42,677 nt of DNA from a virus, in the IMG/VR virus record IMGVR_UViG_3300042898_003314, positions 1 through 42,677 of that record. One strand, 5' to 3'. This document shows positions 7,922-41,386 of the stretch, piece by piece. Made by a program: the position numbers and the translations under genes. The notes beneath the pieces were generated by a model. It was not told the origin of the DNA and did not search any database. It was given only the letters and a program-made list of their open reading frames with translations. The number at the start of each line of letters is the position of its first letter. Within the stretch, counting starts at the first letter, position 1.

Positions 7922-8143
7922 TTAGAACAATTTCTTTGGCAGTGCCTGGGCCGTTATTTGTTTTTGCAAGCGGTTTTTCGCCGCAGATTTTTTACGTTTT
8001 CTCTCAGTGGTAGGTTTTTCATAAAATTCTCGCTCGCGAAGATTGTTCAGCAACCCATCATCTTGAATTTTTTTCTTGAATTTTCGCAGAGCTTTGTCTA
8101 CGTTGCCATCTTTGACCAAAACTGTTCGTCCGTATAGTTTCAT
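7922..8143 (-). CDS. rpsU: Ribosomal protein bS21
   Basis: This 73-residue, strongly basic protein matches bS21 of the small ribosomal subunit, which sits near the mRNA exit/anti-Shine-Dalgarno region and affects initiation. The signature is [19 protein letters not shown] (about 38-56), preceded by the helix [13 protein letters not shown]. Phage-encoded bS21 is established in several aquatic phages, including SAR11 phages, and is thought to enter host ribosomes. Its ATG forms an ATGA overlap with the clpX stop, and a late-type box lies 28 bases upstream inside clpX. The C-terminus ([12 protein letters not shown]) is less conserved. Confidence 0.95.
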
Positions 8144-9339
8144 GAATTTTCTTGTATCAGTGTCATAGGAGTATTTATCAACTCTTTATTGATGACCACT
8201 TGCAGTATGTTTTGTCGTTTATATTTTGGTAGATCAAACATATGCGGTAGCAATGCACGTTCTAGTTCAATGTGTAACCCTCTGGCGCCTGTTTTTGTGT
8301 GCAATGTACGTTCTGCTATGAGATCCAAACTGTCTGGATCAAATTCTAGTGCAACACCATCTTGATCAAACAACCATTTGTATTGACTGATAACATTGTG
8401 TTTTATTTCAGTTAAAATATTAATTAACTGCGGTTTAGTCAACGCTTGTAAATTAACACAGCTTCCAAATCGGCCCACAAATTCAGGAATCATTCCGTAT
8501 CGGACCAAGTCATCGGGGATCACTGGTTCCTGGACAAGATGTATGTCACTGCTGAAATTTGCACTAAATCCCATGGTGGTACCTTGCACACGGTTTTTTA
8601 CTATGGCATCTAACCCCACAAATGCACCACCAGCAATAAACAGTATATTAGTTGTGTCAATTTCTATGGTATCACCGGATTTACGATTTCCATGTGCAGA
8701 CACTTTGCACTTGGTACCTTCAATCAATTTGAGCAAGGCCTGTTGAACACCTTCACCGGACACGTCTCGGGCAACTGTGGCACTTTCGCTTTTTCTTGCT
8801 ATTTTATCAACTTCATCCAGGAACACTATACCACGCTGACATCGTTGAACATCACCATTGGCTGCTGCATACAATCTTCCTATCAGACTTTCTACATCAT
8901 CACCCACATATCCTGCCTCAGTGAGACAAGTGGCGTCGGCCACTGCAAATGGCACATCTAGATATTTTGCCACAGTTCTTGCCAGTAATGTTTTACCAGT
9001 GCCAGTGGGTCCAGTCATTAATATATTGACTTTTTGTATTTCTACATTGGTATCTAAATTACCAATACGTTTGTAGTGATTGGCAATGGCCACTGATAAA
9101 ACTATTTTTGCTGAATCTTGTCCCACCACATGTTGATCTAAAAAATTTTTAATATCTCCAGGATCCAGCACTGTGGATTTAGTTGCATTGGCCGTGGCAG
9201 TTTTTTTTCTGTCTTTGAGTAAATTTTCACAGAAATCCACACAGGCATCACAGATAGCTGCATTGTTGCCCACAATAAGTTTGACTACTTGATCTTTGTG
9301 TTTGGCACAAAAACTACAATGAACAATGGAATCTGCCAT
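8140..9339 (-). CDS. clpX: ClpX-like AAA+ unfoldase
   Basis: This 399-residue protein keeps the full ClpX plan. A zinc-binding domain has Cys8, Cys11, Cys30 and Cys33. The AAA+ module has Walker A GPTGTGKT (110-117), pore loop GYVG (143-146), Walker B IVFLDEVD (171-178) and Arg-finger region PEFVGR (285-290), then sensor 2 KTGARGL. The second pore loop is RKS where E. coli has RKH, and the ClpP-docking tripeptide IGF reads MGF (256-258), so binding host ClpP is plausible but not certain. No clpP is in the window. Two bases separate it from the membrane gene upstream, and it overlaps rpsU downstream. It probably redirects proteolysis or remodels complexes. Confidence 0.93.
8172..8179 (-). promoter_or_regulatory. 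Late-type box GATAAATA before rpsU
   Basis: GATAAATA lies within the clpX 3' end, 28 bases before the bS21 start codon. It is identical to the box in front of the isolated late gene at 35526. It sits in coding sequence, so chance is possible. Confidence 0.35.
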
Positions 9340-11622: not shown

Positions 11623-11866
11623 TATGTTTTTCCTTTAGTTTGTTATCTAACTCTTGCCAAGCTTCTTCTTCCTCAGATGTTGGCTTGTCCATGGCAGTTT
11701 GTTTGCTCAATTGCCATGAACCGTTTTTGAGATCGGTCCACAATAAATTATCACCTTCCTTCCAACCTGCTGCTGCCAACAGGTCTTCTGGAAAGGTCAA
11801 TATGCCATCACCAGTTTCTGGATCTTCATCAATTGTTAGTGTCCATGATTTTCTGGTTGTTGTCAT
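11606..11866 (-). CDS. AbrB/MazE-like protein
   Basis: This 86-residue protein has the swapped-hairpin AbrB/SpoVT signature ILTFPEDLLAAAGWKEGDNLLW (about 22-43), followed by an acidic, charged tail (EEEEAWQELDNKLKEKHND). This fold serves as an antitoxin or transition-state DNA-binding protein. No toxin gene is adjacent, so a stand-alone regulator or host-directed antitoxin is more likely. Its ATG forms a TAATG overlap with the ligase stop. Similar orphan AbrB-like proteins are common in phages. Confidence 0.75.
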   Translation of the reverse strand: MTTTRKSWTLTIDEDPETGDGILTFPEDLLAAAGWKEGDNLLWTDLKNGSWQLSKQTAMDKPTSEEEEAWQELDNKLKEKHNDKNQ

Positions 11867-13284
11867 TAAAGTTTTTCTCCTGCTTCAAATCCACGAAATC
11901 TTACAAATCGTGGAAATCTCAGACTGTATGATCCGTCTTGGTTTTGAGTAACTGCGTCCGCTTCAACCTCAACCACCCGATCAAGAAGCTCATCGCGAGC
12001 GGCCCAATACTCATCGCGATTGCTATCAGACAAACCGCTACCAACATTAACACGAATAGTTCTGTCATTGTCAACTCCTTCACAAATTATAGCACCTAAC
12101 CGGCCCACATTGCGACCAGTTCCTTCTTCAAACCCCACAATATTGAGATCTACAGTAATTGTAGGTTTCCATTTCATCCACGCACTGCTACGTTTACACT
12201 CGTATGGAGCATCAATATCTTTGATCATAATGCCTTCGTAGCCTTGCTCCACTGACGCTTCGGCAAATCTGCGCATGACATCATGTCCTTCGGCAGTATT
12301 TAAATCTACATTCATACCAGGCATGATTCTAATACAATCAGTGGTCTCAAATTGAGATTTAAATTGTTCAAGGTGTGTCAACCGAACTGTTTGAACTTTA
12401 TCCCACTTGCCTTCTCTAAAGTACGGCAATGGAACAATGTCAAACACATGATATACCATGCCTTCAGTTTTAGCGTTGCCTTTACGATGTGCTTGGCGCA
12501 TTAGTTGCTGGAAACTTTCTCCCACAATTTCGCCGTCAAATATATAGCCTCGGCCACCTAAATTCACACTTGGCAATTTTTCCAAAATTGATGTCAGTGC
12601 ATCTGCAATCTGTGGAAAGTTTTCAAACGGTTTGCCATTACGGCTGAATAAATTTACACCATCGCCGGTAACAACTGTTATAACACGCACTCCATCCAGT
12701 TTAACTTCCAGGCGTTTGGTGCCTTTTAATTTGGCAGGATGATCATTTGAATCTTGTGCAAGTTGGCAACTAAAAATTGGTATTTTCCATTCTGATTTGC
12801 CCAACACCTTGTTCAATGTTTTTTCGCTGATGCCGCATCGCAGATCTTTGATAATGACCCTGCGACACAGCCCGTTCCACTCTTCAGAATCAAACTCTTG
12901 ACTCATGAGTTCAATTGAATCTCGAGCAGTGTTACCGGTGACTGTGCGAAGGCGTAGAGCTTCTAACAGGCCCCAAAACGATGGCCAAGGATTGGGACGA
13001 TCAACTAGTCCCATTGTTTCTGGGACCTGTCTTACTCCAAATACATAGAATGGGTTATAGGCTTGGTAACAGTTAAAAAGAAAGCATTGGGCACTGGCAC
13101 TGCCTAGTTTGGAGGCCATAAGTGCTTTTTCAATTACTTTTTCTTTGTGGATCCTACTGTCACTACTTTCTAGATCGCGAATCCAATCGGCCGCCAATTT
13201 TAATCCTTTAAATTTTTCGTCACTGTAATCTATAGTGTGATTCATATATTTATTTTTTGGCTTAGGTTGGATAAATGCTACCAT
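11866..13284 (-). CDS. ATP-dependent DNA ligase (T4 gp30-like)
   Basis: This 472-residue protein seals nicks in replication and repair. Numbering from the 13284 start, the adenylated lysine is Lys195 in EVKLDGVR (motif I). FDGEIVG (249-255) is motif IIIa, EGIMIKD (350-356) motif IV and WMKWKP (369-374) motif V; an OB-fold C-terminus follows. The N-terminal helical domain holds KDLRCGIS (about 146-153), as in T4-type ligases. Two starts are possible: 13284, which makes TAATG with the lipoprotein stop, or Met14 at 13245; neither has a strong ribosome site. It is unusual that a replication gene follows a run of exported proteins. Confidence 0.93.
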   Translation of the reverse strand: MVAFIQPKPKNKYMNHTIDYSDEKFKGLKLAADWIRDLESSDSRIHKEKVIEKALMASKLGSASAQCFLFNCYQAYNPFYVFGVRQVPETMGLVDRPNPWPSFWGLLEALRLRTVTGNTARDSIELMSQEFDSEEWNGLCRRVIIKDLRCGISEKTLNKVLGKSEWKIPIFSCQLAQDSNDHPAKLKGTKRLEVKLDGVRVITVVTGDGVNLFSRNGKPFENFPQIADALTSILEKLPSVNLGGRGYIFDGEIVGESFQQLMRQAHRKGNAKTEGMVYHVFDIVPLPYFREGKWDKVQTVRLTHLEQFKSQFETTDCIRIMPGMNVDLNTAEGHDVMRRFAEASVEQGYEGIMIKDIDAPYECKRSSAWMKWKPTITVDLNIVGFEEGTGRNVGRLGAIICEGVDNDRTIRVNVGSGLSDSNRDEYWAARDELLDRVVEVEADAVTQNQDGSYSLRFPRFVRFRGFEAGEKL

Positions 13285-31237: not shown

Positions 31238-31561
31238 CTATACTCTAAAACTTTCTCCGCAACCGCAACGGTCGCGCTCATTGGGATTGTTGAATTCAAA
31301 ACCTTCATTTAGGCCTTGGCGTACATAATCCACTGTGATATTTTTAAGATAAACTTGGTGTTTTAAATCAACCAGTGCTACAAATCCTTCTTGTGCATAG
31401 TTAATTGTACAGTTGTCTGGGATATACTCTTTGACATATTCTAACACATAAGCAAGCCCAGAGCAACCTGTAGTTCGTACACCAAGACGAATGCCAGCAT
31501 AATTTTTGGCTGTGACAAGTTTTTGTATTTTGTTTCGAGCAGTATCAGTGAACGATATCAT
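31238..31561 (-). CDS. iscA: A-type Fe-S carrier protein (IscA-like)
   Basis: This 107-residue protein has the three A-type cysteines: Cys33 in RTTGCSGLAY, and Cys99 and Cys101 in CGCGESF. IscA/ErpA proteins carry Fe-S clusters or iron to target proteins. The start at 31561 is supported by its match to other members; the gene overlaps iscU by 17 bases. Its residues are intact, so function is expected. Paired with IscU it could supply clusters to phage or host enzymes, such as the radical SAM protein at 40268. Confidence 0.92.
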   Translation of the reverse strand: MISFTDTARNKIQKLVTAKNYAGIRLGVRTTGCSGLAYVLEYVKEYIPDNCTINYAQEGFVALVDLKHQVYLKNITVDYVRQGLNEGFEFNNPNERDRCGCGESFRV

Positions 31562-31937
31562 GCTTTTTGCGGTAATCATCTACCGCGGCCTTGATGGCAT
31601 CTTCTGCCAAGATACTGCAATGGATCTTTACGGGGGGTAAGGCCAATTCTTCAGCGATGTCGGAGTTTTTAATTGATCCGGCTTGGTCGATGTGCATGCC
31701 TTTGACCCATTCTGTAATGAGGCTCGAGCTCGCAATAGCCGATCCGCAGCCATACGTTTTAAATTTTGCATCTGTAATAATACCTGTATCATGATCAACC
31801 TTTATCTGTAATTTCATCACATCACCGCAAGCAGGTGCGCCAACCATACCAGTACCAATGTCTGTATCGGTCTTGTCAAAAGATCCAACATTCCTGGGAT
31901 TTTCATAGTGATCAACCACTTTGTCAGAATAAGCCAT
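31545..31937 (-). CDS. iscU: Fe-S cluster scaffold IscU
   Basis: This 130-residue protein has all IscU landmarks: Cys37 and Asp39 (GAPACGDV), Cys64 (TYGCGSAIASSS), and His106/Cys107 (KIHCSILAEDA), with the HscA-binding LPPVK (100-104) just before them. IscU builds Fe-S clusters that are passed on by HscA/HscB. The gene shares its start with the stop of the secreted protein (TAATG), and iscA follows. An intact LPPVK suggests it can still use host chaperones. Such genes have been noted in ocean viromes. Confidence 0.94.
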   Translation of the reverse strand: MAYSDKVVDHYENPRNVGSFDKTDTDIGTGMVGAPACGDVMKLQIKVDHDTGIITDAKFKTYGCGSAIASSSLITEWVKGMHIDQAGSIKNSDIAEELALPPVKIHCSILAEDAIKAAVDDYRKKHDIVH

Positions 31938-32251
31938 TACTGTGTACAAGTCCTTGTGCGTGTGATTGTACCATCTGGATTTTGTGTTTCAGTCCAGACT
32001 GTGCAATTTTGCTGTTGTTGAACAATCACTGGCTGAGGTCGTACAATCACAGTTTCGGTCTGTGTCATTGGACGATTGGCAATAGCTGCACCGACTACCC
32101 CACCAATGATCAATGGTGCAATCCATCCACTATTACTACCACCATAGTACATTGCATGCCCGTGATGTCTGTATCCACTGTAATATCCATGCGGGCCTGC
32201 CAACACAGTTCCAGATACAGTGAGTAATAATATTGCTAGAAACTTTTTCAT
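31937..32251 (-). CDS. Small exported glycine-rich protein
   Basis: This 104-residue protein has a signal peptide (MKKFLAILLLTVSGTVLA), a His/Tyr/Gly-rich segment (GYYSGYRHHGHAMYYGG), a glycine-zipper-like membrane stretch (WIAPLIIGGVVGAAIAN, about 43-59) and a Gln/Thr tail. It resembles host periplasmic or outer-membrane glycine-zipper proteins. It is the first gene of the iscU operon behind a good promoter. His clusters could bind metal. Confidence 0.7.
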   Translation of the reverse strand: MKKFLAILLLTVSGTVLAGPHGYYSGYRHHGHAMYYGGSNSGWIAPLIIGGVVGAAIANRPMTQTETVIVRPQPVIVQQQQNCTVWTETQNPDGTITRTRTCTQ

Positions 32252-32335: not shown

Positions 32336-32689
32336 TTATTTCATGCCGCGACGCATGGCCTTTTTGGCATTTTGATCCACTATATCTTGTGCTTGATCAA
32401 CTGACATATTAGAATCAGGTGATTCTTCGTTACCAAGAAAACGGATCACACCCGAATTTGGATCCAGTGGTTCCAAAATGTTACTCAAAGGTTCTTGATT
32501 AATCAAATCACCTAAGTTTTGCGTAGTAACATTGACACCCATGCTTTTGGCTATGTCGATAAATGCTGCTTGACTGATTTCTTTTTTGGCAGATTCGTCT
32601 CCGGCACGACTGCTCAAGAACATACTGATAGCCGCTAATTTTTTTGCATTAGCGGCCACAGGATCTTCGGCAAATTCACGAATTTTCAT
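32336..32689 (-). CDS. Head-associated or scaffold-like protein of unknown function
   Basis: This 117-residue protein (MKIREFAEDPVAANAKKL) is helical and acidic. Its MKIxEF start occurs in a set of neighbouring genes of large aquatic phages. It is coupled by TAATG to the 314-residue gene upstream. The last residues (QNAKKAMRRGMK) are basic. Role uncertain. Confidence 0.55.
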   Translation of the reverse strand: MKIREFAEDPVAANAKKLAAISMFLSSRAGDESAKKEISQAAFIDIAKSMGVNVTTQNLGDLINQEPLSNILEPLDPNSGVIRFLGNEESPDSNMSVDQAQDIVDQNAKKAMRRGMK

Positions 32690-33633
32690 TATCTGCGACC
32701 ACGACCCAACGAAGCTGAAGCTGGTCTTGCGGCAGGTTCCATGTCATCGATGTCTGGCAATTCGTCAGCAGGATTCATCTCAGCTGGAGGAGCTTCAGCT
32801 CCCATCCCAGCATCCATGCTATCCTGACCTGGAACCATTGGAGCCTGTCCGGTTACTACGCCAAGTGCCTGTTCTAGTTGTTGCTTGGCACCTTGCAAGT
32901 TTTGCAATAATCCGGCCAGTGCAGCAGTGGCATCTGTGTTGAACTGCATGGCTTGATCAACACCAACTTGATCTCTAATCTGTTGCACCAGTGCAGGCAG
33001 GTCTTTGAACTGCATACTGCTGATCTCTTCGCTCATCTTTTGAACTTGATCAACCATGTCTTGGCTGGCCAACACAACCTGAGCTTGTTGGATTTCGCTT
33101 TCACGCAGTGTGCGATACAAATTACGACGCAGACGATTTTCCATTTGATTCTGTGGCATCATGGCCACTGAAGCAACCATTTGTTGTTCGTCAGGATTTA
33201 AATTTTGCCCGGCAGCAGCTTTTTTCATTGCAGCCTGTTGCTTGGGATCTTTGATTGAGGAAATCTTTTTAGCGGCAGCAGCAGCTTGAGCACTGGCCAC
33301 TGCAGGATTTACCGGCGGCATGCCAGACGTTGATTGTGCTTGATTTTGATTGGCGCCAGCAGTTGATCCAATTGCCACGGTAGCAACTTCACGCAGTTTG
33401 GTTTGTAAGCCTTGTTCCATCATTACTAATTTTAAATAGGATGGATTTTGCTCGCTGTAATGAAACTCAGGTTGGCGACGGTGTTCCGTAATCAGCGACC
33501 GCACACGACCAAGCATGTGTCGAGCTTGTGAGCGAGTTAGTTGATCAAAACCAACTTGTCCGCCAAAGTAACTTTCCATTACTTTAGCGACTTGTTTTGT
33601 TTGTTGTGGCGCGGCCAGTTCTTGCAGTTTCAT
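32689..33633 (-). CDS. Helical protein with Ala/Gln-rich centre, unknown function
   Basis: This 314-residue protein starts MKLQELAAPQQTKQVAKVMESYFG and continues with ARHMLGRVRSLITEHR (about 37-52). The centre and C-terminus are Ala-, Gln-, Met-rich with long helices (about 110-270) and end in a disordered Pro/Glu segment. The design is like internal scaffolds or core proteins of phage heads, and I recall similar proteins in T4-like phages. GAGGA precedes ATG by 7 bases. It overlaps the upstream gene by 50 bases, unusually long. Confidence 0.6.
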   Translation of the reverse strand: MKLQELAAPQQTKQVAKVMESYFGGQVGFDQLTRSQARHMLGRVRSLITEHRRQPEFHYSEQNPSYLKLVMMEQGLQTKLREVATVAIGSTAGANQNQAQSTSGMPPVNPAVASAQAAAAAKKISSIKDPKQQAAMKKAAAGQNLNPDEQQMVASVAMMPQNQMENRLRRNLYRTLRESEIQQAQVVLASQDMVDQVQKMSEEISSMQFKDLPALVQQIRDQVGVDQAMQFNTDATAALAGLLQNLQGAKQQLEQALGVVTGQAPMVPGQDSMDAGMGAEAPPAEMNPADELPDIDDMEPAARPASASLGRGRR

Positions 33634-34791: not shown

Positions 34792-35040
34792 TCAGCTTTT
34801 ACTGAGATGGTAGATAACTTTGACTTGTTCTAGTGCAGCTTGAATAGCAGGATTTGTTTCGGCAGCTTTGCGAATACTACCCCAAAGTTTATCTTCTTCC
34901 AGTTGTACTACTAGATCTCGAGCCCGAGGACTTTGACTATGTAATTGTCTTTGAGTTGATCCATGCTCTCTTACATACACTGTTTCGCCACCGTCAGGCG
35001 ACTCGTATATAACTGCTTCAGTAATTTTGTTGACTATCAT
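34792..35040 (-). CDS. Small phage protein of unknown function
   Basis: This 82-residue protein starts MIVNKITEAVIYESPDGGETVYVREHGS, a beta-hairpin pattern, followed by helices (LVVQLEEDKLWGSIRKAAE). The start at 35040 is chosen over an earlier in-frame codon that would overlap the terminator region. It follows the terminator of the late gene, so its transcription either reads through or begins in the short gap. Confidence 0.65.
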   Translation of the reverse strand: MIVNKITEAVIYESPDGGETVYVREHGSTQRQLHSQSPRARDLVVQLEEDKLWGSIRKAAETNPAIQAALEQVKVIYHLSKS

Positions 35041-35065
35041 AATATGTGTATTTAACGCCAACAAA

Positions 35066-35595: not shown

Positions 35596-37521
35596 TTAGG
35601 AGATCAAATCTGGATTGTTTATTCGACGATTGTCGCGACTAAACTTAAATCTATTCACTGCTTTGGCAGTGCCAGCTGGAGTAGAAAATACCCAACCTTC
35701 TTGCCCTGGGTGTTGTAGATCCAACTTGGCTTGCAAATCTTCTTTGATATTGTGTAGCAATAAAAACGCAGTGAATGCTGCACTCATTCCAGAACTATTG
35801 CTTCGTGGACTGCTGAGATATTCCACAATATTGTTGTATTTGCGAGCCGAAACTTTACCTTTCAAATATGTGCCAAACCCTGGCAGCAATGTAGCAGGAT
35901 CAAATCTCACAACAGATTCGTCACCAACCAAACTGTTGATATAATCAACACAAAGTTTAGGCAAGTCTGTGATTTCTAATGCACGAAGTTCGGCAGGATT
36001 AAACAAACCATCAATGTCCGAACTGTATGTGGCCAGCAATGCTTTTAAAGATTTAATATATGTAGATTCTGGTCGAACTGGCTCTTTGGCTGTCACTGGT
36101 TCAATTAACAACAGACCAGGAACTTTTCTTAGTTTATCAAATTCTGTTTGAGTCAGTGCTTGTTTTGGTGCGCCAACTTCGGGATAGTATGTATGAACTG
36201 CAACACCAACATCGGTGCCTTGGATTCGCTGACCTACGTCACTGGCAGCTGGAATACGGTATTCAATGGTGTTGGGTGTAAATTCGTAGTTGCCGGCCAC
36301 CAATGGTGGTTGAGTCATATACAACAAATCACCGTGTATAAATCCGCGAAAGTTTTTGGGCACTGCGGCTTCAAGCAAGGGCCACAATGTTTGGTATATA
36401 GGAACTAATTCTTCTGTGCGTGTGGCCGCATTGCCTTTGGCACGTGCAGTTGCATCACGTTGTGCCATTTGATTTGCCAAAGCCTGAGGGCTCGTAAACA
36501 ATCCATTGTAGCCTTTGGCTCCAAATCCTGCAACATCAGTCAGTATAAACTGTCCACTGGCATCACGTCCAAATATAATGGCTGGTTTTCCGTCCCATTT
36601 GATTGTGGTTGTTTTGGTATCTTCGCTCACATGCTTGATAATGGCCAATGCTTCTTTCACGCCACGTGTGCCTTTACGAAACACAAGATCTTCAAGATGT
36701 TCAATGCCTTTGGCTTTGCCCCCAACATTGGCAGTATCTGCAGATTCAACCAATGGTCGCATGCCTTGATTCACAATACGATCTCTCAAGCGAGCTAAAA
36801 AGTTTGTGTCAGACTCGCCGCGTGTTTCAAAAAATGGTACACCTTGTCTAGCAAAGTGTTCTCTGGCATCTGCTAGTTTAGCATCACGTTTGGGATCCGT
36901 GGCCAAGGCCTGTATGATGGTTTCTACACTGTACAAATCATCTCTGGTGGCTCGGTTGTTTAGCAATAACTTAGCCACTTTATCGGGGTCATCTGTGATA
37001 ATTTGGTCTGTGGCACGATCAGCAATGCCAGCAATTTGATTCAGCTTGTAACCCATGCTCTTGGCCATGGAGTTCATTAGAACGTTACGATCAACACCTT
37101 TGTATTCTGAATTGGCTGGCGCAGTCAGCACAAATTTTGACCATGGCACGTTCTTTAAAAACATAAAGTCTGTTTGCACATGTCCATTGGCTGGATTACC
37201 AGCTATGGGCGTTTTAAAATGCACTGCAACGCCTGTTTTCTTCACATAGTCTTCGGGTTTGAAACCATGACTTTGTACCCATTGTCCAAGCCTTGTTGTC
37301 AATTGTTCTTTGGTTACTCGGTTGGCATCAACTGCAACATCCAAGTCCCCCGATGTGGGCTTTAATCCTGTGCTGCCCAGTGTGTTGTTTTGTAAATCAA
37401 GACCTGGCAACATCATGTCTAACCAAGCAAGTGTAGGTTTAACATCAGTTTGATTGATACGTTGTGTAAGGGCACGGCCGTCGCCGTCTTTGAATATATT
37501 GCCACCTTCGAATATGTTCAT
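35596..37521 (-). CDS. Two-domain protein: Pol-beta-type nucleotidyltransferase plus ligase-like domain
   Basis: This 641-residue protein has an N-terminal nucleotidyltransferase fold: LGST (48-51), GDLDVAVD (58-65) and QTDFM with Asp118 give the GS...DxD...D triad. A second part (about 270-641) looks like a covalent nucleotidyltransferase/ligase: IKWDGKPA (307-314, motif I, Lys308), FIHGDLLY (394-401, motif III-like), EGWV (608-611, motif IV-like) and KAVNRFKFS (620-628, motif V-like). The ligase-like part resembles an uncharacterised T4-like phage family (I recall DUF6267). It could repair or cap RNA or modify protein. It is coupled by ATGA to the gene before it. Confidence 0.7.
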   Translation of the reverse strand: MNIFEGGNIFKDGDGRALTQRINQTDVKPTLAWLDMMLPGLDLQNNTLGSTGLKPTSGDLDVAVDANRVTKEQLTTRLGQWVQSHGFKPEDYVKKTGVAVHFKTPIAGNPANGHVQTDFMFLKNVPWSKFVLTAPANSEYKGVDRNVLMNSMAKSMGYKLNQIAGIADRATDQIITDDPDKVAKLLLNNRATRDDLYSVETIIQALATDPKRDAKLADAREHFARQGVPFFETRGESDTNFLARLRDRIVNQGMRPLVESADTANVGGKAKGIEHLEDLVFRKGTRGVKEALAIIKHVSEDTKTTTIKWDGKPAIIFGRDASGQFILTDVAGFGAKGYNGLFTSPQALANQMAQRDATARAKGNAATRTEELVPIYQTLWPLLEAAVPKNFRGFIHGDLLYMTQPPLVAGNYEFTPNTIEYRIPAASDVGQRIQGTDVGVAVHTYYPEVGAPKQALTQTEFDKLRKVPGLLLIEPVTAKEPVRPESTYIKSLKALLATYSSDIDGLFNPAELRALEITDLPKLCVDYINSLVGDESVVRFDPATLLPGFGTYLKGKVSARKYNNIVEYLSSPRSNSSGMSAAFTAFLLLHNIKEDLQAKLDLQHPGQEGWVFSTPAGTAKAVNRFKFSRDNRRINNPDLIS

Positions 37522-38570
37522 CGCGGTCTAAACCCCATGGCTATCAGTAATGCATCAACTTGCCCATTCCCGGTGGGGTTAAATTCTCTTGGTGCTCTTG
37601 TTGATGTTCTCAAAGCTTGGCCTGCGGCCGATAATTTAGGAGCACTCAAATCAAAAGGTGCCAATGCTTTTAATATATCTGGGTTGGTAGAATTATCTGT
37701 AGGGCTAAGAGTAACTCTGGTTCCTGGATTTTTGTTTTTGGTTTGTTGACCAATTGCTTGTACACCAGCAGTGGCCAGTTGAGCATATTTTGCAATTGCC
37801 TGGTCTTGTTGAACTGTGCCTTGAGTCTGTACAATGATATCCAGCAAGTTTGACAATTGAGCACCAATGCCGGGCAACCGTCGAACATCGTCCATGGTAA
37901 TCTGTTCATAGGTAGTAGGATCTTTGGTTGCAAACTTTGCATCAGACCAATCAACAAATGCTTGCCTGTATGCATCCACTTGTCTTGCATCTTCTGTGAC
38001 TGGAGCATTGCCATGCTGAGCCATATAGCTTTTAACAATAGATGCATTTTTTGGGTCGTTGGGATCTATTTGTTTACCGCCTATATATATCGGCGGCATA
38101 ACTGGATTGGTTGCTGCCGCTGGACCCGCACCGGGTGCGGCTGGTGCTGAAGGAGCTGCTTGTACTGCACCTGCTTCGGCTTTTTTCCAGGCTGCAGTTA
38201 CGGAATTGGCCCATTGGTTAATACCAGGATTTTGTTCAATTTGCTTTAGTTTGTCTTCCCATTTGTCGCTGGGTTTTTGATACTGTGTTCCAAATCCTTT
38301 TTTCTCCATGCTTTGTGCTACTCCAGCAGCAGATCCAGCATAGTCACCGGTCATTCGTTGCAGTGCTCCGGGCATGGCGCCATGTGCTTGTTTATTAAGA
38401 TCCATGATCTTGTTGCCAGCTTGAGCAAGTTTAGTATTGGTGTATTTGTTTGCTTGGCCAATTTTGTCTATGGCAGGACCCACTGCACCTTTGACTGCAC
38501 TGCTGGCGGATTTTAGTTTGTCCATAAATCCTTCATTCAATGACGTTTGTGTTAGTTCATGTATTTGCAT
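37518..38570 (-). CDS. Unknown phage protein with Ala/Pro linker
   Basis: This 350-residue protein (MQIHELTQTSLNEGFMDKLKS) has a helical N-terminal third, an Ala/Pro linker (about 138-158), and a C-terminal part with VRRLPGIGAQLSNLL (about 232-246) that resembles a helix-hairpin-helix. It is coupled to the nucleotidyltransferase-ligase-like gene by ATGA, so the two probably work together; a binding partner or nucleic acid guide is an inference. Confidence 0.6.
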   Translation of the reverse strand: MQIHELTQTSLNEGFMDKLKSASSAVKGAVGPAIDKIGQANKYTNTKLAQAGNKIMDLNKQAHGAMPGALQRMTGDYAGSAAGVAQSMEKKGFGTQYQKPSDKWEDKLKQIEQNPGINQWANSVTAAWKKAEAGAVQAAPSAPAAPGAGPAAATNPVMPPIYIGGKQIDPNDPKNASIVKSYMAQHGNAPVTEDARQVDAYRQAFVDWSDAKFATKDPTTYEQITMDDVRRLPGIGAQLSNLLDIIVQTQGTVQQDQAIAKYAQLATAGVQAIGQQTKNKNPGTRVTLSPTDNSTNPDILKALAPFDLSAPKLSAAGQALRTSTRAPREFNPTGNGQVDALLIAMGFRPR

Positions 38571-38805
38571 CTGTACGCCTTACTGTGCGAGTAAATTTGT
38601 CAGGATCTCTGAGTCGAATTGCATTGATCAATTTACGTTGCAGATTATCTGCTTGTTCCGGAGTGTAGCTAGCTTCTATTTGTTCTAGTAGTCTTATGGC
38701 ACTGGCAATAATGTTGGCGGCGCGACTTTCTATAACATGACGCTGATCGCGTTCTGCATATAGACTATCTAACTCTTCTAATAAACTCCGTGTTTTCTTT
38801 TGCAT
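38557..38805 (-). CDS. Small helical phage protein
   Basis: This 82-residue protein (MQKKTRSLLEELDSLYAERDQRH) is nearly all helix with many Glu, Arg and Leu, and is likely a coiled coil. It overlaps the next gene by 14 bases and has a late-type AATAAATA 22-29 bases before its start. It probably opens the transcript of the nucleotidyltransferase-ligase-like protein. Function unknown. Confidence 0.65.
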   Translation of the reverse strand: MQKKTRSLLEELDSLYAERDQRHVIESRAANIIASAIRLLEQIEASYTPEQADNLQRKLINAIRLRDPDKFTRTVRRTDANT

Positions 38806-38870: not shown

Positions 38871-40274
38871 TCATGATTGTTTAATTTGCCCCAACAGTTG
38901 TTTGAGTTTAGCACTGTTTACATCTGCAGTGACCTTACTGATTTCGCCTGTATCTTGATTTACAGATTCAGTCACACGACTTTGTGTTTTAATACTATCA
39001 TATATACTGGGTTTTTTAACAAATCCTCCGGAAGATTCATCAGCTGATTCACCAGAGTCTGTAATTCGCATGGTTTCAATATTGTATTCTAAATCAATTT
39101 TTTGACCTACTCCGGTACTACTACGACTTTTCATACATTGTATTTGATAACGCCCACGTTCTTTCATTGCGCGACTTGTAAAAATGCCAAACACATTGTC
39201 TGCAGTATTGATTTTAGATATACCACCCGAAATATGACTGTGATCAAATTCAACTTCTTCAACTGCTGATCGATTCAACTGACTGGCAGTGACAAACAAC
39301 ACATTGAGTTCTTTGGCCAAGTTGCGTAGTTCTTCACTCACATACTTGTCCTTGACAAACAAATCATTAGGACTAACCTTGGCACTGACCGGCATCAACA
39401 AATCCAAATAATCAACCATGACAAAGTCCACACGCAGTCCTGTTTGTATCTGGACTTCTTTAATATAACTTCTGATATCATTGATGTTGCTTTGTGCTGG
39501 CAGTGCTTTGACTCTGTACTGCCCGGACTTTTTGGCCATCATTTTGACTTTGAGTTCTGTGGTATCAATGTCTCGACGAATTTCTTTAGTGCCCATGTTG
39601 GTCAACATGGCATCTGTTCTTAGTGCACATAGATCTTCACTTAGCTCTAAACTGATGTAAACTCCGCTGAGTCCTTGTTGCAACCAGTTCAATGCCATAT
39701 TCATCATCACAAGACTTTTACCAGATCCAGAGCCGCCGGCAAAGATGTTCAATTCACCACGACTAAATCCACCATACAACAGTCGATCCATTTGAGGCCA
39801 CCCTGTACTGACTTGGCCGCCTGAATTAAAATATCTATTGATACGCAGTGCAGGGTCATCGAAATAGTCTATGCCCATGTCTTTGGTCAGACTGATCTGC
39901 ACTGCATCTTTAATTAGTTTTTCTACAGGGTCATAGTCACCTTTTTCTAACAAGTCTGCTGACTTTAAAATTGCTCGTTCTAGTTCTTGCCTACGAGTAA
40001 AACTTTCAAACTCCTGCATGAACCATTCAAAGTGGCCTTCGTTCAGATCTGGAATAGTATTCAGCTTAACACCTGTACTGGCACCAATCTGTTCCACAGT
40101 TGGTAGCGTCTTATACTGATCACTGTGGGTAGCAATAAACTCGGCAGCCGATCTTAAACTTCGATCAAAATTCTCAGGATTGTAGATGTTTTGCACACGT
40201 ATATAGCTACTTGCATCTTGCAGCATCATTTCTAAAAACAATCGTTGAACTTCAAGTCCGTATTCTTTTAACAA
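38871..40274 (-). CDS. Replicative DNA helicase (DnaB family, T4 gp41-like)
   Basis: This 467-residue hexameric-helicase protein has Walker A GGSGSGKS (180-187), Walker B FVMVDYLD (284-291), VYISLELSEDL (205-215, motif 1a region) and VTASQLNRSAVE. The N-terminal region (EVQRLFLEMMLQDASSYIRV) matches T4-like cyanophage gp41, the 5'-3' helicase of the fork. The start is TTG at 40274, with AAGGA 7 bases upstream. It overlaps the radical SAM gene by 7 bases. Together with the primase upstream it would form the primosome. Confidence 0.95.
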   Translation of the reverse strand: MLKEYGLEVQRLFLEMMLQDASSYIRVQNIYNPENFDRSLRSAAEFIATHSDQYKTLPTVEQIGASTGVKLNTIPDLNEGHFEWFMQEFESFTRRQELERAILKSADLLEKGDYDPVEKLIKDAVQISLTKDMGIDYFDDPALRINRYFNSGGQVSTGWPQMDRLLYGGFSRGELNIFAGGSGSGKSLVMMNMALNWLQQGLSGVYISLELSEDLCALRTDAMLTNMGTKEIRRDIDTTELKVKMMAKKSGQYRVKALPAQSNINDIRSYIKEVQIQTGLRVDFVMVDYLDLLMPVSAKVSPNDLFVKDKYVSEELRNLAKELNVLFVTASQLNRSAVEEVEFDHSHISGGISKINTADNVFGIFTSRAMKERGRYQIQCMKSRSSTGVGQKIDLEYNIETMRITDSGESADESSGGFVKKPSIYDSIKTQSRVTESVNQDTGEISKVTADVNSAKLKQLLGQIKQS

Positions 40275-41386
40275 TTTAATTCCTTATAATATTTTCCTAC
40301 TGCCAAACTGGTTCTCCAGTTAGTATTTCTTCTATTATCAATTTTATCTAACATTGATGTCCAGTTATTATCTTCATTGATCGTCAGTGTATTTTTAATA
40401 TAATTACCTATTCCGGATAGTTCCGGAATAGATCCTAAATGATCTATTATATGATTTTTTACAGCAATTGGCAAAAATTTAATATTAAAATTATTAGCCA
40501 ATTGCCAGCAAAAATCGGATTTATCGCCTTCTCTATTTGTTTGTAAATTTTCACTGAACCAATGCCACACATCGAGTGTTTCAAAGATATTATAACATCC
40601 AACTGTCATATTAACTCCAAACATAACATTTCCAGGTAAACTTTTTTTCATTGCCATAATGTTATCACTTACAGATTTCCAATTACCCGGCCATCTTACA
40701 TATTCAAATGCTAGCTCAGTTGCATCGATGCTGAAAAATAGTTTAACTAACTTAGCACCACTCCATAAATCTATTATTTTATCACTGGGCATAACAGTAC
40801 CATTGGTATTGTAACTTATAAATGTATTTTTTAATACACCTTGATCTTTTAATTTTTCTAATAACTTAATTTGATCATTGTTTAACAATGGTTCTCCACC
40901 ATTGAAGTGTATTTTTTGTATATTTGTAAAATCTAATCTATCTAAAAAACTATTTGACTTTTGAAACTTTCTTCCTATGTTAATCAATTCAGTCTGTGTA
41001 TAGTTTAACTCGGTTGCCCATAGACTACTATTTTCTGGACCGCACATAATACAGGCAAGATTACATGCCCATGTTGCACTATGATCAATGCATGCTAACT
41101 CTACCAAATCAGATGGTGGAAGATTGTAAAATTCAATAGCACTTTGTCGGCGACTTTTGTGTCCAATTGCTTCCGCATCCCAACACCGAGAACATTCCAA
41201 CGGTTTTACTCCACGAGCAAACTCAGATCGAAGATGTGTTAAATGAGGGCTTTTATAAAAATCAAAAGTATCAACTGCTTCAATTTTTGAAACTGCCTGA
41301 CAGCACGGTGCAACACTGATATCATTGTCGTTAACTCGATCTATATATATGCTACGATAAATTTCAGGACACCAATTATGACTCAT
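40268..41386 (-). CDS. Radical SAM protein
   Basis: This 372-residue protein has the radical SAM motif CNLACIMC (CxxxCxxC, about 112-119), then HFNGGEPLL (about 159-167), typical of the SAM-binding GGE. Additional Cys pairs at the start (CPEIYRSI...APCCQ) and CSRCWD (about 64-69) recall auxiliary cluster or twitch-type radical SAM proteins, which often mature peptides. It sits between an SGNH-like gene and the helicase. Substrate unknown. It would need Fe-S clusters, which the phage IscU/IscA could help supply. Confidence 0.85.
   Translation of the reverse strand: MSHNWCPEIYRSIYIDRVNDNDISVAPCCQAVSKIEAVDTFDFYKSPHLTHLRSEFARGVKPLECSRCWDAEAIGHKSRRQSAIEFYNLPPSDLVELACIDHSATWACNLACIMCGPENSSLWATELNYTQTELINIGRKFQKSNSFLDRLDFTNIQKIHFNGGEPLLNNDQIKLLEKLKDQGVLKNTFISYNTNGTVMPSDKIIDLWSGAKLVKLFFSIDATELAFEYVRWPGNWKSVSDNIMAMKKSLPGNVMFGVNMTVGCYNIFETLDVWHWFSENLQTNREGDKSDFCWQLANNFNIKFLPIAVKNHIIDHLGSIPELSGIGNYIKNTLTINEDNNWTSMLDKIDNRRNTNWRTSLAVGKYYKELNC

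Follow-up and report, generated by a model that had tools for sequence, protein, structure and literature searches.

A Pol-Beta-Type Nucleotidyltransferase Fused to a Ligase-Like DUF6267 Domain in T4-Like Phages: A Possible Capsid-Delivered End-Repair Enzyme

Two Nucleotide-Transfer Domains in One Chain

The window analyzed here (the whole 42,677-base virus record IMGVR_UViG_3300042898_003314 of IMG/VR) is a fragment of a freshwater T4-like phage, with genes for ribonucleotide reductase, a DnaB/gp41-type helicase, a primase and an ATP-dependent DNA ligase. One of its genes encodes a 641-aa protein in which a predicted Pol-beta-type nucleotidyltransferase (NTase) is followed by a member of the family DUF6267, predicted by us to be a divergent ligase. 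Our preferred reading, which we hold tentatively, is that this is a bifunctional enzyme carried in the phage head and injected with the genome, where it would add nucleotides to nucleic-acid ends, likeliest those of RNA, and seal them. This reading is built on the sequence, the conserved catalytic residues, the predicted folds, a conserved gene cassette and a leader pattern, and from these we infer packaging in the window phage, catalysis, substrate and purpose.

The ORF has exactly the position and length given in a first-pass annotation of the same DNA (Table 1), and the idea put forward there of two nucleotide-transfer enzymes in one chain has held up, with a predicted Pol X-like NTase and a predicted ligase-type adenylyltransferase fold on either side of a disordered linker. 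The Asp triad described in that annotation is complete (GSTG at residue 49, GDLD at 58 with D59 and D61, and D118). The ligase-like motifs are also in place (KWDG at 308, HGDL at 396, EGWV at 608 and KAVNR at 620), except that the histidine of HGDL is not conserved, being Q in most homologues.

Relatives of this protein are encoded in at least 546 IMG/VR stretches, and the 80 kept from the scan all align over the full length, or over as much of the protein as could be read. A set of 32 diverse fused homologues, ca. 62–74% identical to the window protein, has S50, G52, G58, D59, D61, D118, K308, D310, G311, G397, D398, E608, G609, K620, and R624 invariant. The motifs are therefore not a product of chance, and none of the 32 lacks the Asp triad or Lys308, a loss that would have counted against the proposed fusion. 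When 27 cyanophage DUF6267 proteins (21–26% identity) were added, K308, D310, G311, G397, D398, E608, G609, K620, V622, and R624 were still invariant. The motifs of the ligase superfamily can be recognized as KWDG, GD, EG[WF]V and KxV[ND]R, and the K, D, E, and K of these motifs are kept in all of 54 sequences. On the NTase side, G49, S50, G52, G58, D59, and D61 are the same in all 21 NTases compared, four of them distant stand-alone proteins that retain the pattern GS..GD[IL]D..D. No relative of the 641-aa protein was found among the genome contigs of bacteria and archaea or the plasmids searched, nor did the protein have a match in NCBIfam.

Table 1. Features of the gene cassette in the window (coordinates of the whole stretch).
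Feature	Coordinates	Strand	Basis
Fused Pol-beta-type NTase and DUF6267 ligase-like protein, 641 aa, ATG start	35596..37521	-	ORF; PF19782; phrog_455; IMG/VR relatives; AlphaFold2
N-terminal leader MNIFE, predicted prohead-protease cut E5/G6 ([ILV]-x-E/G)	37507..37521	-	Homologue leaders; residues 1–4 disordered; gp21 rule
Pol-beta-superfamily NTase domain, residues 6–248	36778..37506	-	Foldseek Pol lambda/beta; stand-alone homologues Phosso, Atu_ph07, PA5oct, L249
NTase motif GSTGLKPTSGDLD, predicted catalytic D59, D61	37339..37377	-	Invariance across NTases
Third NTase carboxylate D118	37168..37170	-	Invariant
Interdomain linker, disordered, residues 249–269	36715..36777	-	pLDDT below 50
DUF6267 ligase-like covalent nucleotidyltransferase half (predicted), residues 270–641	35599..36714	-	Separate model; PDB fold matches
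Ligase motif I KWDG, candidate nucleotidylated Lys308	36589..36600	-	Invariant
Motif III-like G397-D398, on strand 393–401	36328..36333	-	Invariant; predicted secondary structure
Motif IV EGWV (E608)	35689..35700	-	E608 and G609 invariant
Motif V-like KxV[ND]R (K620, R624)	35650..35664	-	K620, V622, R624 invariant
Coupled partner, 350 aa, conserved leader and hypervariable body; capsid-internal-protein-like	37518..38570	-	ATGA overlap; leaders
Partner leader MQIHELTQTSLNE, predicted cut E13/G14	38532..38570	-	Partner leader comparison
phrog_11854 virion structural protein, 82 aa (the coiled coil of the first-pass annotation)	38557..38805	-	phrog_11854 E 1.2e-15; counterpart in Phosso, Atu_ph07, PA5oct
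gp41-type replicative helicase, fixed upstream neighbour of the cassette	38871..40274	-	DnaB_C, phrog_19; helicase upstream in other lineages

The Ligase-Like Half

The second half of the protein is a member of PF19782 (DUF6267), with 102 bits against a Pfam gathering cut-off of 27 bits, and the protein also matches phrog_455, to which no function is assigned; a literature search found no paper naming DUF6267. As the first-pass annotation had supposed, structure prediction gave an NTase fold for one half and what looks like a ligase-type fold for the other. The AlphaFold2 model of the full protein has a mean pLDDT of 89, with residues 1–4 and the linker disordered, and the ligase half modeled separately reached a pLDDT of 91.9 and a pTM of 0.88. 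Nearly all of the best 27 Foldseek matches of this half in the PDB were tRNA, RNA or DNA ligases, each of them a weak match (best E 6e-3, TM-scores ca. 0.2). They were led by the fungal tRNA ligase Trl1 and included the ASFV DNA ligase, archaeal RNA ligases, human ligases I and III, the Naegleria RNA ligase and also LigD. The agreement of these weak matches with the motif order I-III-IV-V appears strong. K308 is predicted to end a strand, G397-D398 lies inside a strand, and E608 and K620 border or fall within strands 609–614 and 617–622, which is where motifs I, III, IV, and V should lie.

Compared with RNA and tRNA ligases of the Rnl2/Trl1 type (PF09414), the window protein has a similar predicted fold, the same motif order and an adjacent NTase. 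It differs from them in having GD where motif III usually has a glutamate, KxV[ND]R instead of KxK (motif V is without the second lysine) and an extra, partly helical part of ca. 200 residues between motifs III and IV. A Pfam scan gave no match of the protein to RNA_ligase PF09414, and neither a ligase nor a polymerase was matched in a PDB sequence search with the protein and two profiles. Matches to VPS28 in that search (E 0.001) were taken as spurious, since they are confined to the helical insertion. With the cyanophage members of PF19782/phrog_455 (T4-GC71) the window protein shares all the motif residues and the position downstream of the gp41 helicase. The cyanophage proteins, in contrast, either measure ca. 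300–400 aa and lack a Pol-beta domain or have an HxGH cytidylyltransferase at the C-terminus. Taken together, the models and motifs lead us to predict that DUF6267 is a divergent ligase-type covalent nucleotidyltransferase, with a fold closest to tRNA/RNA/DNA ligases.

The NTase Half

Full-model Foldseek searches against the PDB ranked DNA polymerases lambda and beta first (probability 1.00, best E 6e-4); the size and kind of all these matches point to the NTase half. This half is accordingly predicted to be a Pol-beta-type NTase with a fold closest to Pol lambda/beta, and with D59, D61 and D118 it has the GS..DxD..D triad which, on a Pol-beta palm fold, marks the Pol-beta NTase superfamily.

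An obvious comparison is with RlaP. PMC7824862 describes it (after Burroughs & Aravind) as a Pol-beta NTase that accompanies phage RNA ligases, with the predicted role of putting back nucleotides that RloC and similar nucleases have removed. The excision of the wobble nucleotide by RloC has been proposed to be a means of overcoming simple tRNA repair by phages (PMC2610378). The pairs of RlaP with ATP-dependent RNA ligases resemble the window protein in that a Pol-beta NTase works with a ligase, with a predicted replacement of the lost nucleotide before sealing. The window NTase differs in lacking an RlaP sequence match and in being fused to its ligase and apparently packaged. Membership of RlaP (PF10127) was rejected, as the Pfam scans gave no match to the window NTase. 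When eight related phages were searched with PF10127 the sole match was a separate gene of Agrobacterium phage Atu_ph07, not the cassette NTase, and hhalign of the window NTase against this RlaP gave an E of 0.48. The RlaP precedent is thus one of analogy, not of membership. The true RlaP of Atu_ph07 (MF403008, 154923–155339; PF10127, E 7e-11) lies apart from its cassette NTase. Second, more distant NTase paralogues, in frames of ca. 318 aa, are found in the 462-kb contig behind L249 (453159–453935, plus strand) and in Sinorhizobium phage Phosso (118338–119138, minus strand).

A Conserved Cassette

The coupling of the gene to its neighbours reported at first pass was confirmed, with an ATGA start/stop overlap between it and the 350-aa partner and an overlap of 14 nt between the partner and the 82-aa ORF. 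Two other suggestions made there found no support. The HhH-like segment seen in the partner has no Pfam match and its LPGIG stretch is not present in all partners (LPGIDTEL in L013). As to a late-type promoter, the window has four exact TATAAATA sites, a count not above chance, and none of them is upstream of the cluster, where there is only an AT-rich near match. A radical SAM protein gene adjoins the helicase gene (window 40268–41386, minus strand).

Stand-alone homologues of the NTase were found in Phosso, Atu_ph07, the L249 contig and Pseudomonas phage PA5oct. In the first three a ligase-like gene lies directly upstream of the NTase gene and overlaps it, and its product has KLDG (motif I), EG[FV]V (motif IV) and then a motif V-like lysine. 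These three ligase-like proteins have weak, sub-threshold matches to Pfam RNA_ligase (E 0.002–0.085), and the L249 one is also matched by DUF6267 at motifs IV–V. In a genome-wide search the Atu_ph07 gene matched RNA_ligase with an E of 1e-3 over positions 3–169 of 171, and a 324-aa Atu_ph07 protein, equal in length to its ligase-like product, is labeled “RNA ligase” in BFVD. Comparing the profiles of DUF6267 and the RNA_ligase members of the jumbo phages by hhalign gave a weak match (E 1e-3, probability 21%). In PA5oct, a 446-aa protein encoded three genes upstream of the NTase has a fold match to the window model (E 1.7e-5). The common order is helicase, phrog_11854 (ca. 82 aa), partner, ligase-like protein and NTase, with separate genes in the rhizobial jumbo phages and in PA5oct, where extra genes are inserted. 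In the freshwater clade the ligase-like protein and the NTase form a single chain, with the NTase first.

Within the reach of the tools used, the ligase identity predicted for DUF6267 and its fusion to a predicted Pol-beta NTase of a family without Pfam match would be new, and so would be the shared cassette, in which the partner bears a leader, and the evidence for capsid delivery. The superfamily of each domain and the teamwork of NTases and ligases as an idea are already known.

What the Enzyme May Do

RNA-end repair is our best guess for the function, by analogy with the RNA ligase systems discussed above. During head assembly the short leader (MxxI/LxE) would direct the protein into the prohead core, and a gp21-type protease would remove it, so that the protein would then begin with GGN.. 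at its N-terminus. Inside the host cell, the Pol-beta-type domain would add one or more nucleotides to a nucleic-acid end (RNA is preferred, likeliest tRNA), and the DUF6267 domain would self-nucleotidylate at Lys308, activate the 5′ end and seal it. Damage by host ribonucleases, including the loss of nucleotides, might thus be undone from the earliest moments of infection, possibly in RNA cut in the self-defence of the host. If this is true, phage particles carry ready-made nucleic-acid repair against host defences that cut tRNA or DNA and act before phage gene expression. An end-healing polynucleotide kinase (PF13671) would be a natural companion, and none was found above the cut-off in six freshwater relatives, several of which are fragments, with sub-threshold P-loop matches over ca. 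35 positions. This, together with a cyanophage pairing described below that RNA repair does not explain, keeps our confidence limited and leaves protein modification, DNA end repair and cofactor chemistry to be considered.

One alternative, unlikely in our opinion, is an injected effector similar to T4 Alt, in which one or both domains nucleotidylate host proteins (or attach RNA to them), so that the outcome would be reprogramming and not repair. The leader and its T4 parallel would be equally expected from such an effector, Pol-beta NTases in injected polyvalent proteins have been grouped with protein-modifying domains (PMC5512222), and no end-healing kinase was found. However, the structures matched by the NTase are Pol X palms, those matched by the ligase half are polynucleotide ligases, and the jumbo-phage counterparts match RNA_ligase, albeit below threshold.

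We consider it improbable that the protein is a DNA-end enzyme with the injected genome or restriction breaks as its target, combining Pol X-like gap filling and ligase sealing by a LigD-like logic. The best fold matches are indeed DNA polymerases lambda and beta, and the ASFV DNA ligase and LigD are among the ligase matches, but Pol beta/lambda entries are abundant in the PDB, which biases the ranking, and the best ligase match is a tRNA ligase. Besides, neither an OB-fold domain after motif V nor the 8-kDa/HhH domain of Pol X was seen, and the phage already encodes an ATP-dependent DNA ligase (11866–13284).

The Leader and Probable Capsid Packaging

The N-terminus of the window protein is MNIFE/GGN (the slash marks the predicted cut), and its IFE/G agrees with the rule that T4 gp21 cuts after L/I-X-E (PMC9026906). 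Alt, an injected enzyme of T4, loses a six-residue propeptide at ITE-6 (PMC5694885). In 79 of 79 homologues P3 is I, L or V (V in three), P1 is E and P1′ is G, with GGN after the E and a variable P2; 26 different leaders are represented. The stand-alone NTases start with M-GG or M-SG exactly at the E/GG of the fused protein, so the leader appears to be an addition, the removal of which would leave a similar N-terminus. The partner tells a comparable story. A leader of the form MQIHE[LI]T..[LIV]xE[AGS] within residues 6–30 was found in 36 of 48 distinct partners, as against none of the 48 at residues 61–85, and most of the remaining 12 have close variants. With their conserved leader and hypervariable body the partners resemble, in sequence, the internal proteins of T4. 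Both the 641-aa protein and the partner thus look like capsid-packaged proteins.

That the fusion is instead cytoplasmic and unpackaged, its leader motif a coincidence of a conserved N-terminus, strikes us as rather improbable. It would fit the fact that just 4–10 residues precede the predicted cut and that the cyanophage DUF6267 proteins start without a leader. Among 55 mechanically chosen window genes, three have such a site in their first 20 residues, where 1.6 are expected; since the count by itself is not above chance, it is the homologues that carry the argument. Against coincidence, all 26 distinct leaders keep I/L/V at P3 and E at P1 while P2 varies, the three sites all fall within 3.8 kb and the adjacent partner has the same type of leader. 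Moreover, the PA5oct NTase is annotated as structural by ESI-MS/MS, a note missing from ca. 60 early genes of the PA5oct record.

Genes for a gp21 protease and a gp23 capsid protein are present in all three jumbo-size freshwater relatives (317–344 kb). By CDS counting, the NTase and ligase genes of Atu_ph07 are CDS 65 and 66, inside a virion-protein cluster (CDS 31–76); PMC6102473 gives, for the cluster as a whole, 29 of the 46 products as identified in virions. The resemblance to the internal head proteins and Alt of T4 lies in the short N-terminal leader ending in [IL]xE and in the partner's build. The window proteins differ in being neither ADP-ribosyltransferases nor IPs, and their packaging is predicted from sequence. 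A further [IL]xE/A leader (MIVNKITE/AVIYES..) is seen in the ORF at 34792–35064 (minus strand) when read from an internal ATG, and the ORFs at 32336–32689 and 32689–33633 start with MKIREFAED and MKLQELAAP, both resembling the MQIHELTQ of the partner.

A Second Partner in Cyanophages

In cyanophages DUF6267 lies downstream of gp41 and is followed by an HxGH cytidylyltransferase (PF01467); in S-PM2 (LN828717) the two form one 591-aa protein. The S-PM2 gene is in two frames in the 2004 record AJ630128 (103037–104222) and whole in LN828717 (93497–94678). The ligase-like domain thus appears to be teamed with either of two unrelated nucleotidyltransferases. The cyanophage partner, T4-GC190, lies next to the same ligase domain or is fused to it, has a T4-type leader (in 128 of 147 cases) and was detected in S-SM1 virions (PMC3037559). 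Its HxGH fold is unrelated to the Pol-beta NTase of the window. The virion table of S-CREM2 has a cytidylyltransferase and not the DUF6267 product (PMC10665884). PF01467 enzymes of the freshwater jumbo contigs were considered as counterparts of this partner and rejected, as they look like cupin-joined sugar nucleotidyltransferases unrelated to the cassette. To our knowledge, the known HxGH transferases have small phospho-molecules as substrates, and this has no obvious fit to RNA repair.

The NTase product might instead be a small molecule or cofactor (a nucleotidylated metabolite or NAD-type chemistry) that the ligase-like half would consume. Such a system could draw on this pairing or fusion with an HxGH cytidylyltransferase/NMNAT-like domain and on the occurrence of such cytidylyltransferases in virions (PMC10665884), but is quite improbable given that the Pol-beta domain resembles polynucleotide polymerases and that the known members of the ligase superfamily act on polynucleotides.

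Returning to end repair, a wider and somewhat more doubtful proposal is that there is a whole class of packaged and injected “add-and-seal” systems, in which DUF6267 and one or the other nucleotidyltransferase would be delivered by the capsid and act before phage gene expression. The cyanophage records with DUF6267 number in the hundreds, as do the freshwater phage contigs that have it, and no function is assigned to the family; its predicted ligase fold, NTase partner and likely capsid route make it a testable candidate for a counter-defence enzyme in many T4-like phages.

Elsewhere in the window, all on the minus strand, we found a UvdE-type UV endonuclease (PF03851, E 5e-31; 392–1411), a ClpX-like AAA ATPase with a C4 zinc finger (8140–9339) and adjacent iron-sulphur assembly genes of the IscA (PF01521) and IscU/NifU_N (PF01592, E 1e-54) types (31238–31949).
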